A DNA stretch of 6,652 nucleotides from Chloroflexota bacterium. GTDB lineage: Bacteria; Chloroflexota; Chloroflexia; JAMDCE01. Position numbers and translations under genes: made by a program. Shown in pieces: positions 252 through 6,652 of this stretch. The stretch is from assembly GCA_023489135.1 (NCBI GenBank), contig JAMDCE010000383.1, forward strand, positions 1 through 6,652, written 5' to 3'. Under the pieces are notes generated by a model that ran no database searches, was not told where the DNA came from, and worked only from the letters and a program-made list of their open reading frames with translations. Each line of letters opens with the position of its first letter. The stretch's first letter is position 1.

Positions 252-1415
252 CTACTTCGTCAGGTCATTCGCTTTCCTTTGAATTACCGAAAGGTTCAGA
301 ATAAGCGCCGCCAGCGCAAACTCGGATAGGAGCATAAATCCTATAGCAAAGGAGCCAGTAGCATCTCTGACGAAGCCCATAACTATCGGCGGGAAAAACC
401 CACCGATGCCACCCCCGGCGCCAACCAGGCCGGTTACAGTGCCCACTTCAGTCGGATAGTACTGGGAAACCAGCTTGAACACCGCTCCGTTGCCAAGACC
501 CAGGCTCGCTGCGATTCCGAGAAACGCTACTGTGGCCAGCCGCATTTCCGGCCCGAAGGCCAGCACAACTGCTAGCGCTGCGATGACGACGAATATCCAC
601 GTCAGTACTCTGCCTCCTCCCCAGCGATCGGACAGTAATCCTCCGACTGGACGAGTGAGCGTTGCCACGATAACAAATCCCGCTGTCCGTGCTCCAGCAT
701 CGGCTTTCATCAGTCCGAAAGTGTCGACAAGGAAAGTTGGTAGATAGATCGACAGGGCGACGAATCCGCCAAAGGTGATGCAATAGAAAAGCGTCAGAAT
801 CCAAACCAGCGGTCGCGTCAAGGCCTTGAGACGAGTGCCGATGGGCTCCAACTGTGCAGGAGGTGCGGCCTCGCGTCCAAATAGAGCGAAGATGACGGCC
901 ATGAGCAGCAGGGCCGGTAAGAAGAGCCAGAAGACGGTTGGCCAGCTGTAAGCGGTAGACACCATCGGAGCTAGAAAGCTCGATAGAGCGGTGCCAATGT
1001 TCCCCATCCCGTAGATGCCTAGCGCGAATCCCTGCTGCGCGGGCGGGAACCACTGGGCAACGTAAGGAACACCGATGGCGAAAGTTGACCCGGCCGTGCC
1101 CAGCCAGAATCCCCAGAATAGCAGCAAGGGATAGCTATTGGCGAAGCCGATCAATAGTGTTGGAATCAATAAGAAGAGCAGTAAGGCAGTGAAGACGATT
1201 CTGGCGCTATAGCGATCTGTGAGAAGCCCTACTGGAATTCGTGCCAGCGAGCCGAGGAGAACAGGCACGGCCACGAGGATGCCGGCCTCGGTGCTCGACA
1301 GATCGTACATCTCCTTGAACTGTGGTGCCAGGGGCGCAATAAGTCCCCACACGGCAAAGCACAGGGTAAATGCCACGGTCGCGAGCGCCAGAGCAACGTT
1401 GCGATAGTGAAGCAT
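252..1415 (-). CDS. narK: NarK-type nitrate/nitrite transporter (MFS, NNP family)
   Basis: A 387-residue, strongly hydrophobic protein of 12-TM major facilitator type, typical in length for single NarK/NasA porters. Both nitrate-signature regions of the NNP family are present. The first is around residues 133-150 (GIYGMGNIGTALSSFLAP). The second is around 306-343 (GLGNGAVFKLV, then VTGLVGAGGGIGGFFPP). R59 (in ARIPVGLLTDR) and R255 (in TRPVGG) sit where the two substrate-binding arginines of NarK lie. The family carries nitrate and/or nitrite across the inner membrane, by proton symport or nitrate/nitrite antiport; which applies here cannot be told from sequence. The ATG at 1415 lies three bases after the stop of the upstream small membrane gene and has only a weak Shine-Dalgarno, suggesting translational coupling. 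As last gene of the operon it presumably supplies the molybdoenzyme with nitrate. Confidence 0.92.
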   Translation of the reverse strand: MLHYRNVALALATVAFTLCFAVWGLIAPLAPQFKEMYDLSSTEAGILVAVPVLLGSLARIPVGLLTDRYSARIVFTALLLFLLIPTLLIGFANSYPLLLFWGFWLGTAGSTFAIGVPYVAQWFPPAQQGFALGIYGMGNIGTALSSFLAPMVSTAYSWPTVFWLFLPALLLMAVIFALFGREAAPPAQLEPIGTRLKALTRPLVWILTLFYCITFGGFVALSIYLPTFLVDTFGLMKADAGARTAGFVIVATLTRPVGGLLSDRWGGGRVLTWIFVVIAALAVVLAFGPEMRLATVAFLGIAASLGLGNGAVFKLVSQYYPTEVGTVTGLVGAGGGIGGFFPPIVMGFVRDATGSFAIGFMLLSEFALAALILNLSVIQRKANDLTK

Positions 1416-1418
1416 CGG

Positions 1419-1646
1419 CTATTCTCGATATGCCAGGATGGCGCCCAGGCTGATCAGGAATCCCAGTCCAGATACGACCGCCGAGGTAACAGCGCCAGTC
1501 GTATCTCCCGAGAGCAAAAGGTCCAGCCCGACGGTGAGCAGCCAGAGCTGGCCGACGACCACTAGTGCCACGATGGCGATTTGAGCGTGAACCGCCGCGA
1601 TGTTTCCTGACGTTCTGCGCACGTCCGGAGCACGGTAAATCTTCAT
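1419..1646 (-). CDS. Small two-TM membrane protein (75 aa), unknown function
   Basis: ATG at 1646-1644 overlaps the Rieske stop TGA (ATGA), with AGGAG seven bases upstream. The frame is open further upstream to 1775, but that stretch lies inside the Rieske coding region and reads like an out-of-frame shadow, so the short start is chosen. The product has a basic N-terminus (MKIYRAPDVRRTSG) and two predicted membrane helices, about residues 21-46 and 53-73, joined by a short loop (SGDTTG). The N-terminus is positive and the tail AYRE is short and polar, which suggests a helical hairpin with both ends in the cytoplasm. It has no cysteines and only one histidine (H20), so no obvious cofactor site. 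I do not recognise the family. Its position between the Rieske gene and narK, with tight coupling on both sides, suggests an accessory or anchor subunit of the reductase complex; this is inference. Confidence 0.72.
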   Translation of the reverse strand: MKIYRAPDVRRTSGNIAAVHAQIAIVALVVVGQLWLLTVGLDLLLSGDTTGAVTSAVVSGLGFLISLGAILAYRE

Positions 1647-2161
1647 ACAGTCACTCCTGTGGCGAAGATCACTCCATCTTCGATCTGCAAGGCTATTCGC
1701 GGCAGAGGACGCGGCGGCGGACCGGCGATAACCAGGCCCGTCTGAGGATCGAAGTAGCCCTCGTGACAGGGGCATTCGAGCCTGTTGGTCTCTCTGGCGT
1801 AATAGACTGCGCAGGACAGGTGGGTGCAGACCTGGCTATAGGCCGCAAAGGCCGCACCCTGCAGGTGTACCATAATGGCCGGGTCCTCGGGGCTTGGATA
1901 GGCGAAGTTGATAGCTGTGCCTTCCGGCACCTCAGCTACCCGAGCTATCGCAACTCGCGGAGTTGCCGCAGGCCGGGTGGTGATTGCTCGAATGGCTACG
2001 ATGATATTGCCGACAAATAGTCCCAGTGAGGTCAGCGCCAGAAGGCGCAGGAAATCTCTCCTGGTGACCAGGGCATCGAGCGAGCGATGATAGGGGAAAT
2101 TGAGCGTATGATACGGAAACGGCTGCTCCCGTTCGAGCTCGAGCTCCGTTTCGGGCATCAT
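1643..2161 (-). CDS. Rieske [2Fe-2S] protein with twin-arginine membrane anchor
   Basis: 172 residues. Residues 33-41 read TRRDFLRLL, a twin-arginine (Tat) motif, followed by one hydrophobic helix (about 41-60), so the protein is likely an exported, N-terminally anchored iron-sulfur protein. The soluble domain has both Rieske boxes: CTHLSC (112-117; ligands C112, H114) and CPCHEG (130-135; ligands C130, H133). C117 and C132 can form the disulfide seen in bc1-type Rieske proteins. The serine and tyrosine that hydrogen-bond the cluster in mitochondrial bc1 (CPCHGSxYD) align with G135 and F137 here, which predicts a lowered redox potential. It overlaps the FeS gene stop by ATGA. No cytochrome b/b6 gene of the bc type is nearby, so it probably serves the molybdoenzyme complex rather than a bc complex. 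The position of the Tat motif after about 32 residues gives a long N-region. Confidence 0.9.
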   Translation of the reverse strand: MMPETELELEREQPFPYHTLNFPYHRSLDALVTRRDFLRLLALTSLGLFVGNIIVAIRAITTRPAATPRVAIARVAEVPEGTAINFAYPSPEDPAIMVHLQGAAFAAYSQVCTHLSCAVYYARETNRLECPCHEGYFDPQTGLVIAGPPPRPLPRIALQIEDGVIFATGVTV

Positions 2162-2171
2162 CGTTCCTCCT
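2156..2171 (-). promoter_or_regulatory. Strong ribosome binding site and double start of the Rieske gene
   Basis: A perfect AGGAGG (2166-2171, minus strand) lies within the last codons of the FeS gene. Two consecutive ATG codons follow: 2161-2159, four bases from the AGGAGG, and 2158-2156, seven bases from it. The second has the better spacing, so the mature start may be one residue shorter than annotated. The first overlaps the FeS stop TGA. The strong site suggests high independent initiation of the Rieske gene in addition to coupling. Confidence 0.6.
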
Positions 2172-2775
2172 CGTTTGCCGATTGTTCCGCCAGCGCGTCG
2201 GCAAAGCTAGGCACCAGCTCAACAGGTACGATCTCCAACTCAGGAGGAGATACCACGTACACTCTGGTGTGGACTGTCTGTTTCCCGAACCGATGGACGT
2301 TCACGGGCTTCCCCCGCTGGCGGGCCACCATCTCCTCGTAAGTGCCATAGAAAATGGCGCCGCTCGGGCAAACCGTGGCGCACATTGGCTTCAGCCCATT
2401 GACCACCCTGTCATAGCACATATTGCACTTGTACTGGAGATTGTGCGCTGGCTCGTACTTGGGAATGCCAAAGGGGCAGGCGTTCACGCAGTTGAGACAG
2501 GCGATGCAGCGCTCCTTCAGCGCCTCCTGCACGACGCCGTCGGGAGTGATCAGGATCGCCTGCGTCGGACAGACCTGGGCGCATGGGGCTGGCGGCTCCT
2601 GGCAGTGCATGCACAAGGAAGGATTTGTCGCGAAGGAGTTGAAGCGATCAAGGAAATCGACGAAGATCATCGCCAGTCCTCGATGAGTCTCGCACTCCCG
2701 ACATCCGACCACGCAGGCGCGGCAGCCGATGCAGTGCTGTGGGCTAAGAATCATGGTGCGCTGCAAGTCCAGCAT
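2158..2775 (-). CDS. Ferredoxin-like electron-transfer subunit with four [4Fe-4S] clusters
   Basis: A 205-residue protein of the DmsB/NrfC/HybA/NarH-like ferredoxin type, without signal peptide. Sixteen ligand cysteines fall in four motifs: C15-x2-C18-x2-C21-x3-C25; C55-x2-C58-x6-C65-x3-C69; C90-x2-C93-x2-C96-x3-C100; and C117-x2-C120-x11-C132-x3-C136. All positions are cysteine, so four [4Fe-4S] clusters are expected rather than the [3Fe-4S] plus three of NarH. C28 is an additional cysteine. Such subunits form an electron wire between a membrane quinol oxidase subunit and a molybdopterin catalytic subunit. The ATG at 2775 follows the catalytic gene by 11 bp, with a purine-rich GGGGAAGG before it; an alternative start at residue 8 (MILSPQHC) also looks family-like. 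Absence of an export signal matches the catalytic subunit, so both should be cytoplasmic. The C-terminal tail after about residue 185 is acidic and probably flexible. Confidence 0.9.
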   Translation of the reverse strand: MLDLQRTMILSPQHCIGCRACVVGCRECETHRGLAMIFVDFLDRFNSFATNPSLCMHCQEPPAPCAQVCPTQAILITPDGVVQEALKERCIACLNCVNACPFGIPKYEPAHNLQYKCNMCYDRVVNGLKPMCATVCPSGAIFYGTYEEMVARQRGKPVNVHRFGKQTVHTRVYVVSPPELEIVPVELVPSFADALAEQSANEEER

Positions 2776-2786
2776 CTACCTTCCCC

Positions 2787-4955
2787 TTAAGGCAACTCCA
2801 GGGCGGCGGCGCAGACCTTGTACTCCGGGATTTTCGCGACGGGGTCGAGGACTGGATTCGTCAGCAGATTTGCCGCCTTCGGAACTCCCCAGTGATATGG
2901 GATGAACAGCGTGTCGGGCCGTATGGTGCGCGCCACCAGCGCTTTCAATACTACTTCACCACGTCTGGTTCGCACCTTCACTAACTCGCCGTGGCCCACG
3001 CCGATGCGCCGCGCCGCGTCAGGGTGAATCTCCACCCACGGATCGGGCGCCTGATCAATTAAGAAGCCAAGCCGACGTGTTTGGTTGCCGGACAGGTAGT
3101 GATAGACCACACGGCCTGTGCTCAGATAAAATGGATAATCCTCGTCGGGAACCTCGGCCGGCGGACGATGCCCCACAGGGATGAACGCGGCGCGCCCGTT
3201 AGGATGGAAAAAACGATGCTCGAACAGATGAGGCGTGCCAGGATGATTCAGGTCAGGGCATGGCCAGAAGACGCCTTTTCGGGCCTCCACCTTCTCGTAA
3301 GTGATCCCGTAATAATCCGCCAGTCCCCCTCGGGAAGCCTCTCGCAGTTCGTCGAAGATGGCACGGGCCGATTCGAACTGGAAGTACTCGCCCTTGCCTA
3401 GACGCCGGGCCAGGTCGCAGATTATCTGCCAATCGACTCTCGCTTCACCAGGCGGATCGACTGCCTTGTTGTACTTGACTACTCTGCCCTCCATTTGCGT
3501 GACCAAGCCCTCGTCCTCTGCCCAGGCTGACCCAGGCAACAAGACGTGCGCGAATGGAGCGGCGGTTTCCGACAGGAAAAAGTCTACGACAGCGTACATT
3601 TCCAGGCGGCCAAGCGCCTCCCGCAGCCAGTTGAGATTGGGAATCGAGACCATCGAGTTGTTGCAGATCGAGATGAGGCCGCGGATTTTGCCTTCGCCTA
3701 TCAAACGCATCATCTCGACCGCCGAGGCGCCTGCATAGGGCAGGTCTTCTTCGCGAATTCCCCAGACACGTGCCACGTGCTGTCTGGATTCGGGATTGTC
3801 GATGCGGCGCATCCCAGGCAATTGATCGGCTTTCTGGCCGTGCTCGCGCCCTCCCTGGCCGTTGCCCTGTCCCGTCAACGTGCTGTAGCCGCAGCCTGGT
3901 CTGCCAATCTTGCCCGTGGCCAGCACCAGGTTTATGGCAGAGAGGCAATTATCAACCCCTTTCGACTGGTGCTCTACCCCTCGCGCGGTGAAAAGAATCC
4001 CTCGTGGCGCCCGTCCCCACATTCTCGCCGCCGAGACGATGCTTTCGGCGGGAACGCCGCATATCTCGGCAACGCGGTCGGGCGCATAGTCGGCCACGAC
4101 CTTTGTGACGGCATCGAACCCGTCCGTTCGCTGCGCCACGAATTCCCTATCGACGTAGCCCTCCTCGATTATCACCTTCAGCAGGCCGTTGAAGAGAGCC
4201 AGGTCGGAACCGGGGCGAATCTGAAGGTGGATGTCGGCAGTGCGGGCGAGTTGGGTCTTGCGCGGATCGACGACAATCAACTTGGCCCCTCGGTCGCGCG
4301 CCCGCCAGGGATAGTGAATCATGACTGGAAATGTCTCAGGGATATTGCTGCCGGCGACCAGGAGGCAATCGGCGATCAAGACGTCAGTTAGCGGAAACGG
4401 CATGCGATCGATGCCGAAAGCCTTGAGGTTAGCGCCCGCCGCCGACGTCATACAGAGGCGACCATTGTAATCGACGTTCGCTGTTCCGAGGCCCACGCGA
4501 GCAAACTTACCGATCAAATAGGCTTTCTCGGTAGTGATCGACGAGCCTCCGTACACCGCCACCGCGTCTTTCCCGTATCGTTCCTGAATCTCCTTGAACT
4601 TCCCGACTATGAGATCGAGCGCCTCGTCCCAGGTTGCCCTCACAAGTTGCCCGTTCTTGCGGATGGTTGGGTACGTTAGCCGCGCGGGATGTGTCACTTG
4701 CTGATAAGCAGATACGCCCTTGGGACATAATCTCCCCTCGTTGACGGGGAAGTCCTCCCTCGGCTCGACGCCAATGACCCTGCCTCTCGAAACCTTCAGG
4801 TACATCGCGCATTGGACGCTGCAGAACGGGCAGTGCGTCGGCACGAGTCGGTCGATCTTATCGCTCGTCGTCCAGTCGGCCGGCACAGGCCCACGTTCCA
4901 GGAAATCGATTGCTTTATCCACTTGGCGTTCGAAAACGTACTTGTCTACCGACAC
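2787..4955 (-). CDS. Molybdopterin nitrate reductase catalytic subunit, NarB/NasC type
   Basis: A 722-residue Mo-bis-MGD oxidoreductase expected to reduce nitrate to nitrite. The N-terminal [4Fe-4S] motif is C42-x2-C45-x3-C49-x27-C77 (THCPFCSVQC ... GRLCPKG), with K79 in the usual electron-transfer position. C168 in NGRLCMTSAAG is the likely Mo ligand; cysteine followed by methionine is the NapA/NasA/NarB form, unlike formate dehydrogenases. Residues 361-382 (TGQGNGQGGREHGQ then KADQLPGMR) match what I know of actinobacterial assimilatory nitrate reductases. The C-terminal MGD-binding domain runs from about 608 (FYLSTGRVVYHY) to the end (HWGVPKAANLLTN). There is no Tat signal, so it is cytoplasmic, and no C-terminal [2Fe-2S] domain as in NasA of Klebsiella. 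Length fits NarB (about 710-730). The start is GTG at 4955, 12 bp after the membrane subunit gene, with GGTGG upstream. The FeS and membrane partners suggest quinol or ferredoxin-like feeding. Substrate is inferred from motifs plus narK. Confidence 0.88.
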   Translation of the reverse strand: MSVDKYVFERQVDKAIDFLERGPVPADWTTSDKIDRLVPTHCPFCSVQCAMYLKVSRGRVIGVEPREDFPVNEGRLCPKGVSAYQQVTHPARLTYPTIRKNGQLVRATWDEALDLIVGKFKEIQERYGKDAVAVYGGSSITTEKAYLIGKFARVGLGTANVDYNGRLCMTSAAGANLKAFGIDRMPFPLTDVLIADCLLVAGSNIPETFPVMIHYPWRARDRGAKLIVVDPRKTQLARTADIHLQIRPGSDLALFNGLLKVIIEEGYVDREFVAQRTDGFDAVTKVVADYAPDRVAEICGVPAESIVSAARMWGRAPRGILFTARGVEHQSKGVDNCLSAINLVLATGKIGRPGCGYSTLTGQGNGQGGREHGQKADQLPGMRRIDNPESRQHVARVWGIREEDLPYAGASAVEMMRLIGEGKIRGLISICNNSMVSIPNLNWLREALGRLEMYAVVDFFLSETAAPFAHVLLPGSAWAEDEGLVTQMEGRVVKYNKAVDPPGEARVDWQIICDLARRLGKGEYFQFESARAIFDELREASRGGLADYYGITYEKVEARKGVFWPCPDLNHPGTPHLFEHRFFHPNGRAAFIPVGHRPPAEVPDEDYPFYLSTGRVVYHYLSGNQTRRLGFLIDQAPDPWVEIHPDAARRIGVGHGELVKVRTRRGEVVLKALVARTIRPDTLFIPYHWGVPKAANLLTNPVLDPVAKIPEYKVCAAALELP

Positions 4956-4967
4956 TTGACCACCGTA

Positions 4968-6014
4968 TCACAGGAATTCCCGCTGGACCCTGGCGAAATA
5001 GGTGTTTGCGCGGAGCATCCGCTTGCATTCTGGGCAGTAGTCCTGGAGCCATTGCCCTTGAGGACCCATCGAATAATCCTGGTTGAGATCGCGCAGCGTT
5101 TGCTTGAGGTCTTCGACGAATTGCTCTGCAGCAAACGTTCGTCCGCAGCGCACGCAGGCCCGTCCAGCAGTGAGAGTGGTCACTTGCTTGTATAATCTGA
5201 TGCCGACGCTCGCTGGCCTTTCGAGCACGTGCCAGAACTTTCCGAAAGGAATGTAGAGAATAGCCAGGATGACCAACCCTTGATGGGCCAGGGCGATGAA
5301 CCAGTAGAAACTCCCTGCCCAGAGCATACTGCTGGCGGTGAGGAGCAACCCGCTCACGGAAATCGCCAGCAAAAGAAAGAGCGGCAGGAAATCGAAGCCA
5401 AACTCTTGCTCGGGCATCAAGCCCCTGTCTGTCCAGCGCCGCCACAGTGCGATGGCCACGCCGATTATTACCAGTATCGCGGTAACGTCCAGGAAGTGAA
5501 ATATGAGGAAGCCGAGGGCCGCTCGCACAGGAAAGGTTAGTATTGGAATTCCGACGACGAGCAACTGGTAATCCGCGGTGCCAACCAAATGGAAGCGAAT
5601 CCAGCCGAAGACGAGGGGAAAAGTAATCGCGCTGGCCAGTATCACTCCCCAAAACAGGCAGAAGTGCATAATCCATCGCTCTATACCGCGTGGAAGAATG
5701 AAGTTCTGAACTGCTATGTCGCCGATGATAGCCTGGGGAATGAGCCAGCCGTAGCGACGGAAGTTCCTCCAGGAGGCGAAAAGCTGCCAGCCGCGAGCCC
5801 AGTAGAGGCGAGTGGGCGGACGGGATAGCCAGAGGACAAAGCGGTAAGTTACGCCCAGGGCGGCAAATACGGTGGCTGTTGCATAGCCGATGAGCGCGGC
5901 GTCGAAGTCACGCAGGTTTCGCGAGCCAATAATGATAGCCAGCGTTAGCAGAACAGCTACCGACAGCGCGATGGTTCCTGCTCGCAAGTCAAGCTTCGGC
6001 ATGTTGCACCGCAC
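4968..6014 (-). CDS. NarI/HdrE/DsrM-like membrane subunit with C-terminal two-CxxC domain
   Basis: 348 residues with about six membrane helices (roughly 13-30, 38-62, 116-138, 150-190 as one or two, 207-226 and 237-257). H117 (RWIMHFCLFWG), H173 (FHFLDVTAILVIIG), H244 (ALAHQG) and H262 (FGKFWHVLERP) resemble the paired heme-b ligands of NarI and its HdrE/DsrM/TmcC relatives, implying two b hemes and quinol oxidation. After the last helix comes a soluble tail with C287-x2-C290 and C327-x2-C330, a zinc-ribbon or rubredoxin-like knuckle, probably cytoplasmic. GTG at 6014 is preceded by AGGGAG; an ATG at 6002 (MPKLDL) is a possible alternative with weaker spacing support. As first gene after the promoter it probably anchors the complex and passes electrons from menaquinol or another quinol to the FeS subunit. 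Heme content and partner quinone are inferred from the family. Confidence 0.78.
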   Translation of the reverse strand: MRCNMPKLDLRAGTIALSVAVLLTLAIIIGSRNLRDFDAALIGYATATVFAALGVTYRFVLWLSRPPTRLYWARGWQLFASWRNFRRYGWLIPQAIIGDIAVQNFILPRGIERWIMHFCLFWGVILASAITFPLVFGWIRFHLVGTADYQLLVVGIPILTFPVRAALGFLIFHFLDVTAILVIIGVAIALWRRWTDRGLMPEQEFGFDFLPLFLLLAISVSGLLLTASSMLWAGSFYWFIALAHQGLVILAILYIPFGKFWHVLERPASVGIRLYKQVTTLTAGRACVRCGRTFAAEQFVEDLKQTLRDLNQDYSMGPQGQWLQDYCPECKRMLRANTYFARVQREFL

Positions 6015-6130: not shown

Positions 6131-6178
6131 TGGGCGCGTGCTGTTGCGTCCGCGAACCCTATCTTTGCAACGCGCCCA
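6131..6178. repeat. 9-bp perfect inverted repeat at the end of the hydrolase gene
   Basis: TGGGCGCGT at 6131-6139 is the exact reverse complement of ACGCGCCCA at 6170-6178, with a 30-base loop. One arm lies in the last codons of the hydrolase gene (stop at 6161-6159), the other in the intergenic gap. Transcribed leftward it could form a GC-rich stem between the hydrolase gene and the nitrate operon, but there is no T-run after it, so it is not a classic intrinsic terminator. It may be chance in GC-rich DNA. Confidence 0.3.
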
Positions 6179-6652
6179 CGTATTCGAGGACTTCGCCGAG
6201 TGTGACGACGTCGGCGTACTTGGCATTCATCTCATAAAGGCTGACGAGATGCGACATCTCGGCTCGATCGAAGGTGCATTCTTCGATGACGAAAACGGGA
6301 AATCCGTGTGAGTGAGCGTCCACGACTGACGCTCGGACGCAGCCTGAGGTGCTTACTCCTGTCACAAGTACGGAATCCACCCCTTGCTGGTGAAGGTAAA
6401 CTGCCAGCGGTGTCCCGAAGAATGCAGACGCGCGAGGCTTCTCCAGGACCCACTCACCAGCCCGTGGAGCTATCAGGTCGGGAATCTCCTCCCTGTCCCC
6501 GCTCAGTTCCGCTTTGCCTGATCGGGTGTGCCCCTTTGTGGCGACGCCGATGAATTCTCTCGTGACGGGATTTCCGCGAGTATAGACTACGCATAGTCCC
6601 TTCTCGCGGCAAGCATCCAGAAGTTTCTTTATGTTCGGCAATGTCGTCCACA
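6159..6652 (-). CDS. N-carbamoylsarcosine amidase-type cysteine hydrolase (isochorismatase superfamily), 5' end missing
   Basis: The frame is open to the right edge, so the N-terminus lies outside; a TTG at 6641 could be read as a start but gives a protein lacking the first beta strand. About 163 residues are visible. Counting from that TTG, K68 in VLEKPRASAFFGTPL and C101 in VTGVSTSGCVRAS are the catalytic lysine and nucleophilic cysteine of isochorismatase-like hydrolases; the catalytic aspartate would be in the missing part. The SAFFGTxL block and the C-terminus NAKYADVVTLGEVLEYVGAL closely follow the N-carbamoylsarcosine amidohydrolase group, whose type enzyme releases ammonia and CO2 to give sarcosine. 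Maleamate amidohydrolase (NicF) and other amidases are close relatives, so the substrate is not certain. It lies upstream of the nitrate operon on the same strand but is separated by about 145 bp and a promoter, so it probably belongs to a different transcription unit. Confidence 0.82.
   Translation of the reverse strand, partial: WTTLPNIKKLLDACREKGLCVVYTRGNPVTREFIGVATKGHTRSGKAELSGDREEIPDLIAPRAGEWVLEKPRASAFFGTPLAVYLHQQGVDSVLVTGVSTSGCVRASVVDAHSHGFPVFVIEECTFDRAEMSHLVSLYEMNAKYADVVTLGEVLEYVGALQR

Follow-up and report, generated by a model that had tools for sequence, protein, structure and literature searches.

We analysed a 6,652-nucleotide stretch of DNA (hereafter the window), positions 1 to 6,652 of contig JAMDCE010000383.1 from the Chloroflexota bacterium assembly GCA_023489135.1. 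On its minus strand lies a block of five genes (1419-6002) that encode, in this order, a membrane subunit, a catalytic subunit, an iron-sulfur (FeS) subunit, a Rieske protein and a DUF6755 protein; narK then follows. We consider it likely that the five genes specify one membrane-bound, cytoplasm-facing nitrate reductase that depends on (mena)quinol and works like NarGHI with other parts. The computational analysis covered the gene block, its protein families, the clade of the catalytic subunit, motifs, fold similarity, conservation and linkage. The following features were assigned:

4968-6002, minus strand: membrane subunit, NarI/QmoC-type cytochrome b (profile matches, predicted structure, conservation)
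2787-4955, minus strand: catalytic subunit, a molybdenum/tungsten (Mo/W) bis-molybdopterin guanine dinucleotide oxidoreductase with an N-terminal 4Fe-4S cluster, Cys-Met at the Mo site and the motif TGQGNGQGGREHG (domains, models, tree)
2158-2775, minus strand: four-cluster [4Fe-4S] ferredoxin subunit of the formate dehydrogenase (FDH)-beta/DmsB type (family models, cysteine conservation)
1643-2161, minus strand: Rieske [2Fe-2S] subunit with the twin-arginine motif TRRDFLRLL, one transmembrane (TM) anchor and the boxes CTHLSC and CPCHEG
1419-1646, minus strand: two-TM protein DUF6755 (PF20540; 28.0 bits, cutoff 27)
252-1415, minus strand: nitrate/nitrite transporter of the NarK/NNP family in the major facilitator superfamily (MFS; TIGR00886 251 bits, cutoff 311.7)
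6159-6650, minus strand: isochorismatase-family hydrolase upstream of the block, cut by the window end, with nothing to indicate that it belongs to the block

The genes are tightly packed. The membrane and catalytic genes are separated by 12 bp, the catalytic and FeS genes by 11 bp, and DUF6755 and narK by 3 bp; the FeS and Rieske genes overlap by 4 bp, as do the Rieske and DUF6755 genes. A previous sequence-only reading had described five adjacent genes with gaps of at most 12 bp followed by narK, and all of them are present where it placed them. The block itself stood, with one gene start revised: the membrane gene probably begins at ATG 6002, which gives 344 amino acids as in the database protein P0001, and not at GTG 6014, and the two-TM gene occupies 1419-1646. 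The closest relatives with an organism name are Chloroflexota metagenome-assembled genomes (MAGs). In the nearest named genome locus, from a groundwater Chloroflexi MAG (L001), the catalytic subunit is 67% identical and the gene order, narK included, is the same. A megablast search gave no match to near-identical plasmid DNA.

A genome scan with an alignment of the catalytic subunit yielded 589 confirmed stretches. Among the best 80 of these, a membrane gene lies nearby on the same strand in 79, and in the one locus that lacks it the contig begins 29 bp upstream. FeS, Rieske and DUF6755 genes accompany 78, 73 and 65 of these loci, respectively. The exact five-gene order is found in 61 of the 80; seven match the order minus DUF6755, five stop after the FeS gene, two hold the membrane and catalytic genes only, and in four the FeS, Rieske and DUF6755 genes stand ahead of the membrane-catalytic pair. 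Most loci that depart from the exact order end at contig ends, and in the seven without a Rieske gene the contig runs on for no more than 1.6 kb downstream. The same five-gene order appears on an annotated Deinococcus plasmid, which has an annotated DUF6755 at the same position. In all, the loci carry about ten phylum labels: Chloroflexota, Acidobacteriota, Actinomycetota, Armatimonadota, Verrucomicrobiota, Myxococcota, Sericytochromatia and Hydrogenedentota, besides single MAGs tagged Bacillota and Pseudomonadota and the Deinococcus plasmid. This recurrence across genomes rules out chance co-occurrence or a single odd contig.

Two surveys, in which genes were paired by their coordinates, covered 151 Chloroflexota and 198 Actinomycetota genomes (catalytic E thresholds of 1e-170 and 1e-240, respectively; membrane threshold 1e-20). 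In Chloroflexota, all 20 catalytic matches of at least 1051 bits had an adjacent membrane gene on the same contig and strand, as against none of the eight full-length matches at 906-981 bits. In Actinomycetota, 13 of 13 matches of at least 1049 bits were paired and 0 of 6 at 861-878 bits. Pooled, the surveys thus give 33/33 high-scoring matches with a membrane gene and 0/14 lower-scoring full-length ones. We excluded from these counts a partial catalytic match without a membrane gene (G079; model 264-645, 672 bits) and two partial membrane matches without a neighbouring catalytic gene (G070, model 7-225; G121, model 7-78). The sequence-only reading had named regular occurrence of the catalytic gene without its partners as evidence against it; among full-length members of this clade no such pattern was seen, either in the 33 survey matches or in the scan, where 79 of the 80 loci have the membrane gene. 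One Streptomyces genome (G008) holds both the complex and a stand-alone form, and in Thermosporothrix hazakensis (G004) the complex occurs twice (L098, L104), with some 120 kb between the copies.

The catalytic subunit has the Pfam domains Molybdop_Fe4S4, Molybdopterin and Molydop_binding. Its best NCBIfam model is that of NasC (NF047855), with 877 bits. This is below the equivalog cutoff of 1100, as are the scores of the stand-alone NasC proteins of Ktedonobacter and Pyrinomonas (873 and 865); the model did match the B. subtilis control genome. Scores also stay below the cutoffs of the FDH-alpha model TIGR01591 (634 bits, cutoff 666), the NapA model TIGR01706 (269, cutoff 931) and the NarG model TIGR01580 (75, cutoff 1084). 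The N-terminus is not hydrophobic, and no twin-arginine translocation (Tat) signal was seen on this subunit. The Mo ligand region reads DYNGRLCM and the second motif TGQGNGQGGREHG. In the first catalytic alignment, Cys168-Met169 and GGRE are invariant in 23 rows, window included; four more distant members (L052, L053, L066, L075) have GARE instead. Formate dehydrogenase rows carry RLCH and RGQ[NS]N where the window has Cys168-Met169 and TGQGN, and NarB/NasA rows carry NSRLCM and TGQPNAMGGRE, a comparison that draws on the invariant columns and on the rows with the Mo region printed, the first match of many rows being the N-terminal Fe4S4 region.

Two trees rooted on FDH, a quick one of 63 rows and a careful one of 42, were built from rows chosen among 164 extracted sequences plus the window. 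The E. coli FdhF frame, split by its TGA, was excluded, and the rows do not include B. subtilis NasC. The complex-linked catalytic sequences form one clade, supported by a Shimodaira-Hasegawa-like approximate likelihood ratio (SH-aLRT) value of 95 in the quick tree and by 97/94 in the careful one. Its sister is the clade of stand-alone NasC (100 and 100/100), and the window subunit lies outside that clade. The NasA/NarB branch comes next as a separate clade, and FDH is a group of its own in both trees; NapA, on a long branch, groups with NasA/NarB in the quick tree. By sequence, then, stand-alone NasC is the sister group of the catalytic subunit of the complex, whereas the cyanobacterial NarB and enterobacterial NasA proteins lie elsewhere. 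The label "NarB-type" that the sequence-only reading had used is not borne out: the tree rules out a NarB identity, and "sister of NasC" should take its place. The same reading had named a place among formate dehydrogenases or another non-nitrate clade as the outcome that would speak against it; no such placement was seen, and motifs, model cutoff and tree together rule out a formate dehydrogenase.

The membrane subunit has six TM helices (topology by reading) and a C-terminal CxxC...CPxC domain. Four histidines, H113, H169, H240 and H258 in the 344-residue numbering, correspond to H117, H173, H244 and H262 when counted from the GTG start; overall the subunit has the make-up of a NarI-type cytochrome b anchor. 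The window protein itself gave no Pfam match and only a weak QmoC match (20.7 bits, E 2.3e-4, cutoff 300). Across the family, QmoC matches were obtained for 77 of 81 members (E≤0.01) and Nitrate_red_gam matches for 16 of 81 (E≤0.1). A first structure model from 24 rows (pLDDT 81) was replaced by one from 81 rows (pLDDT 92.6); both have the same top VIA families, with lower Z in the first. Residues 283-326 (344-residue numbering) form a Cys4 domain akin to the tail of the formate hydrogenlyase subunit HycF. Database records label the protein "MFS transporter" or "hypothetical protein"; the former name, which is used in several MAGs and on the Deinococcus plasmid (see also L086 6820-7932), looks wrong. 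A natural fusion of an HPP domain with the membrane subunit also exists (P0048, 558 amino acids).

Over 97 rows of the FeS subunit, 16 cluster cysteines and one further cysteine each reach a conservation of 98% or more among the rows present, and the NarH model gives the subunit 36 bits. The Rieske protein carries disulfide-type boxes CTHLxC and CPCH in 89 rows by a strict pattern, which three rows fail. With these boxes, two extra cysteines, a Tat signal and a TM anchor it has the features of bc1-type Rieske proteins, and its best matches in the PDB are Rieske proteins of quinol-cytochrome c reductase (3fou and 1nyk, of Thermus origin). The serine at the CPCHGS position of box II is absent in 89/89 rows. 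Loss of this serine lowers the redox potential, and a lower potential would suit menaquinol. The twin-arginine pair is present in 91 of 91 rows and precedes a hydrophobic stretch in 90, that of L070 being weaker; one row beyond these 91 (L006) is truncated before the boxes. An uncleaved signal that anchors Tat-dependent Rieske proteins is described in PMC5449189. In the present family, the twin arginines and the hydrophobic stretch argue for export of the Rieske protein by Tat, which would put its domain on the outer face. The DUF6755 profile was iterated from one sequence (1, 21, 27, 74 and 89 matches in successive rounds), so individual DUF6755 calls are less certain.

To describe the neighbourhood we used 98 loci, after omission of 27 that repeat or shorten others; the set is skewed to Actinomycetota (30 loci, mostly Streptomyces). 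Within 3 kb of the catalytic gene and on the same strand, NarK occurs in 33 loci, SLAC1 in 12 and HPP in 11, never two kinds together. Three unrelated transporter families thus fill one role; examples beside the block are L009 13173-14396, L131 10526-11308 and L042 12955-14133. SLAC1 proteins are anion channels, and HPP proteins are nitrite transporters of cyanobacteria and chloroplasts. The transporter gene mostly follows DUF6755, but NarK stands ahead of the membrane gene in L041, L052, L065 and L066 and after the catalytic gene in L035. The window NarK is 25% identical to that of E. coli and retains the arginines aligned with R89 and R305, which presumably take part in binding. The counts of SLAC1, HPP and NirK neighbours come from profiles that were each built up from a single locus. 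Confirmation by Pfam covers only SLAC1 in L009 and HPP in L068, L131 and L132, and the L009 protein scores below the tdt model cutoff (107 vs 237). NirK matches lie within 8 kb of the complex in 3 of the 98 loci (L038, L040, L068). In L068, an Acidimicrobiia MAG, the NirK frame (5575-7845) passes the copper nitrite reductase cutoff and ends 43 bp upstream of the membrane gene (start 7889), which makes this locus a compact nitrate-to-nitric-oxide unit.

Feature by feature, none of the known systems NarGHI, NasC and pNar fits fully. Stand-alone NasC (NF047855) shares DYNGR[F/L]CM and TGQGNGQGGREHG with the complex, at 47-51% catalytic identity in the first six read, but none of its 13 distinct loci (5 to 15 kb each) has membrane, FeS, Rieske or DUF6755 genes. 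Instead, 11 of the 13 have NirB on the same strand no more than 81 bp away, and L169 has it at 1.5 kb; L168 (Streptomyces) has only weaker NirB matches 4.8 and 6.5 kb away. NarGHI likewise combines a Mo subunit without export signal, a four-cluster FeS protein and a NarI-fold cytochrome b, with narK nearby. Unlike it, the complex has a Cys-ligated NasC-like catalytic subunit, a short FDH-beta/DmsB-like FeS subunit, additional Rieske and DUF6755 subunits and an additional Cys4 domain on the cytochrome b; a BLAST search for NarJ in the 80 complex loci gave no match. In a Dehalococcoidia MAG (L018 1-7686), NarH-like and distant NarG-like frames lie beside the complex on the opposite strand. NarB/NasA of cyanobacteria, Klebsiella and Paracoccus belong to the same superfamily and have the Cys-Met Mo site, but they form a separate clade (100/100), carry TGQPNAMGGRE and have no membrane module in the loci read. 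The anchors QmoC, DsrM, HmcE, TmcC and EtfD share their cytochrome b superfamily with the membrane subunit and serve sulfur, hydrogen or flavoprotein electron transfer.

The haloarchaeal pNar (NarGH with the Rieske protein NarB and the dihaem NarC) faces outward and resembles the complex in that genes for a Rieske protein and for a cytochrome b of the dihaem kind accompany those of the nitrate reductase. In PMC7754194 these two are proposed to relay quinol electrons, NarC is said to be no homologue of NarI and the catalytic subunit is NarG-type. The catalytic subunit of the complex is not an exported NarG-type protein. A superfamily survey treats NasC, NasA and NarB as one family exclusive to nitrate assimilation and lists four-cluster subunits, Rieske subunits and membrane anchors as operon partners that are general in the superfamily, with no description of the complex itself in the parts available (PMC10100899). 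The nasC gene of B. bataviensis is linked with genes for Rieske-type and hybrid iron-sulfur proteins in a different arrangement, according to PMC3475470. Streptomyces coelicolor nasA (SCO2473) is called a putative or assimilatory nitrate reductase, and no complex is named in the excerpts of PMC10704036 and PMC3073908; we did not adopt it as an experimental precedent, as which of the two forms it is could not be told. No description of the five-gene complex was found in the portions available of the open-licence PMC literature, a scope outside which subscription papers and preprints fall.

Taken together, the results support the proposal of the sequence-only reading that an assimilatory-class catalytic subunit is part of a membrane complex, here found to be conserved, that also contains a NarI-like cytochrome b, and they fit feeding from the quinol pool. 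The Cys-Met and G[GA]RE motifs and the neighbouring NarK, SLAC1 or HPP genes strongly suggest that nitrate is the substrate. We infer the quinol donor, the haem count, the electron path, the coupling and the roles of the Rieske and DUF6755 proteins. By fold and ligands, and mirroring NarGHI, quinol should be oxidised at the outer face, by a NarI-fold and usually dihaem cytochrome b, with inward transfer to the FeS and Mo subunits. Electrons would pass from the cytochrome b through the four [4Fe-4S] clusters to the Mo site, where the NasC-derived enzyme would reduce nitrate in the cytoplasm. Nitrate reduction would then be coupled to proton release outside, in a redox loop as in NarGHI. The Tat-exported Rieske protein would be anchored outside beside the outer haem, where it probably either joins quinol oxidation at a bc1-like site or connects the complex to outer-face carriers. 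DUF6755 may be a small anchor or assembly subunit, and NarK, elsewhere SLAC1 or HPP, would transport nitrate or nitrite. The role would mostly be dissimilatory or redox-balancing nitrate reduction, which may feed NirK in some lineages.

Several observations weigh against this picture. Foldseek with the membrane models found nothing at E≤0.001, a profile comparison with E. coli NarI was weak (probability 1.2%, E 0.045), a first profile search against PDB sequences gave nothing at E≤1, and the 81-row profile found HycF (E 0.14) and NarI (E 1.1) as its best PDB hits, neither significant. H173, the fourth haem-ligand histidine and a likely one for the outer haem, is replaced by Asn or Lys in seven of the 98 membrane rows (L020, L041, L052, L053, L066, L070, L077), and these seven members may therefore hold a single haem. 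NF047855 scores do not separate the complex from stand-alone forms (877 vs 873 and 865), and one member of the complex (L036) barely exceeds the FDH-alpha cutoff (668.1 vs 666.25), although its NasC score is higher (910). DUF6755 is not matched in 5 of the 80 loci despite more than 2.5 kb of downstream sequence. In 42 of the 98 loci a transporter was not found inside the 3-kb range; where the downstream sequence exceeds 3.5 kb (72 loci), 27 lack one and 45 have one. A Rieske protein predicted on the positive (p) side has no role alongside a Mo enzyme predicted on the negative (n) side in a plain NarGHI-like loop. Finally, a strong nirB match within 8 kb in Pelagicoccus (L070), Hydrogenedentota (L066) and Streptomyces (L051, L055) fits assimilation there.

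This last point leads to an alternative that we regard as unlikely overall, namely an assimilatory nitrate reductase that draws on quinol instead of ferredoxin or NADH and whose product is passed to a nitrite reductase encoded at another place in the genome. The sister clade is the assimilatory-type NasC; NirB/NirD directly follow the complex in L070, strong NirB matches lie 2.9 kb away on the opposite strand in L066 and 5-7 kb away in L051 and L055, and NIR_SIR proteins are present in 23 of 32 complex genomes and absent in 9. However, NirB-model matches within 8 kb accompany just 7 of the 98 complex loci, three of them below 125 bits, compared with all 13 of the distinct stand-alone NasC loci. 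Moreover, 9 of 20 Chloroflexota complex genomes have a second nitrate-reductase-type match on the NIR_SIR contig. Five of these are NasC-like at 906-939 bits (G002, G025, G119, G143, G159) and four score 615-622 bits; of the latter, G055 is NarB-type by tree, and G046, G089 and G113 were assigned by score and place. In six of the 20 (G044, G095, G103, G111, G139, G140), NIR_SIR was not found at E≤1e-10. Many of the genomes are MAGs, so absences may be gaps, but G103 is nearly a single contig (5,069,607 of about 5.1 Mb). Given the separate assimilatory-type reductase in nine genomes and the missing NIR_SIR in six, it is less probable that the complex generally serves assimilation, and respiration, redox balance or a first denitrification step is more likely. 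The sequence-only reading had offered respiration, redox balance or assimilation; the first two are retained, and assimilation falls away as a general role. Among 32 complex genomes, NirK passes its cutoff in five and NrfA in two, and roles may differ by lineage.

A further reading, which we hold to be doubtful, is a chimeric quinol oxidase that combines NarI-type and bc1-type features in a single complex. Quinol electrons would be split between acceptors on opposite sides of the membrane, one passing via the outer Rieske protein to NirK, cytochrome c or an oxidase, the other via the haems to nitrate inside. An outward-facing enzyme seems more doubtful still. In that case the Rieske Tat signal would carry the folded catalytic and FeS subunits across and leave the active site outside, as in haloarchaeal pNar. 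Hydrogenases do use such hitchhiker export via one signal-bearing partner, and the twin-arginine motif is present in all 91 Rieske rows. Yet 56 of the 98 loci have within 3 kb a nitrate/nitrite-type transporter, of use only to an inward-facing enzyme, the catalytic N-terminus in the window is not hydrophobic, the sister NasC is taken to be cytoplasmic and NarI-type anchors pass electrons to the inner face. Reverse running as a nitrite oxidoreductase, from nitrite through the FeS clusters, haems and outer Rieske protein to cytochrome c, is highly improbable: a cytoplasmic nitrite oxidase would indeed need a higher-potential acceptor on the outer face on bioenergetic grounds, but the sister clade is reductive, hosts include the heterotrophs Streptomyces and Deinococcus, NirK stands beside the complex in three of 98 loci, and the missing box II serine in 89/89 Rieske rows points to a lower potential.

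If the five genes do form a quinol-dependent nitrate reductase of the NarGHI kind, the complex looks like a further way of tying nitrate reduction to the bacterial membrane, in which a NasC-class enzyme is set in a NarI-like frame. With it, the association of a Rieske protein with a NarI-type cytochrome also becomes open to experiment. Surveys that score narG and napA as respiration and nasA, nasC and narB as assimilation would file the complex as assimilatory. NarG exceeds its cutoff in 4 of 30 complex genomes, and the other 26 have no NarG match at E≤1e-100. With the complex so often found in genomes that lack a NarG match, the nitrite that soil Chloroflexota, Acidobacteriota and Actinomycetota produce may be wrongly attributed.

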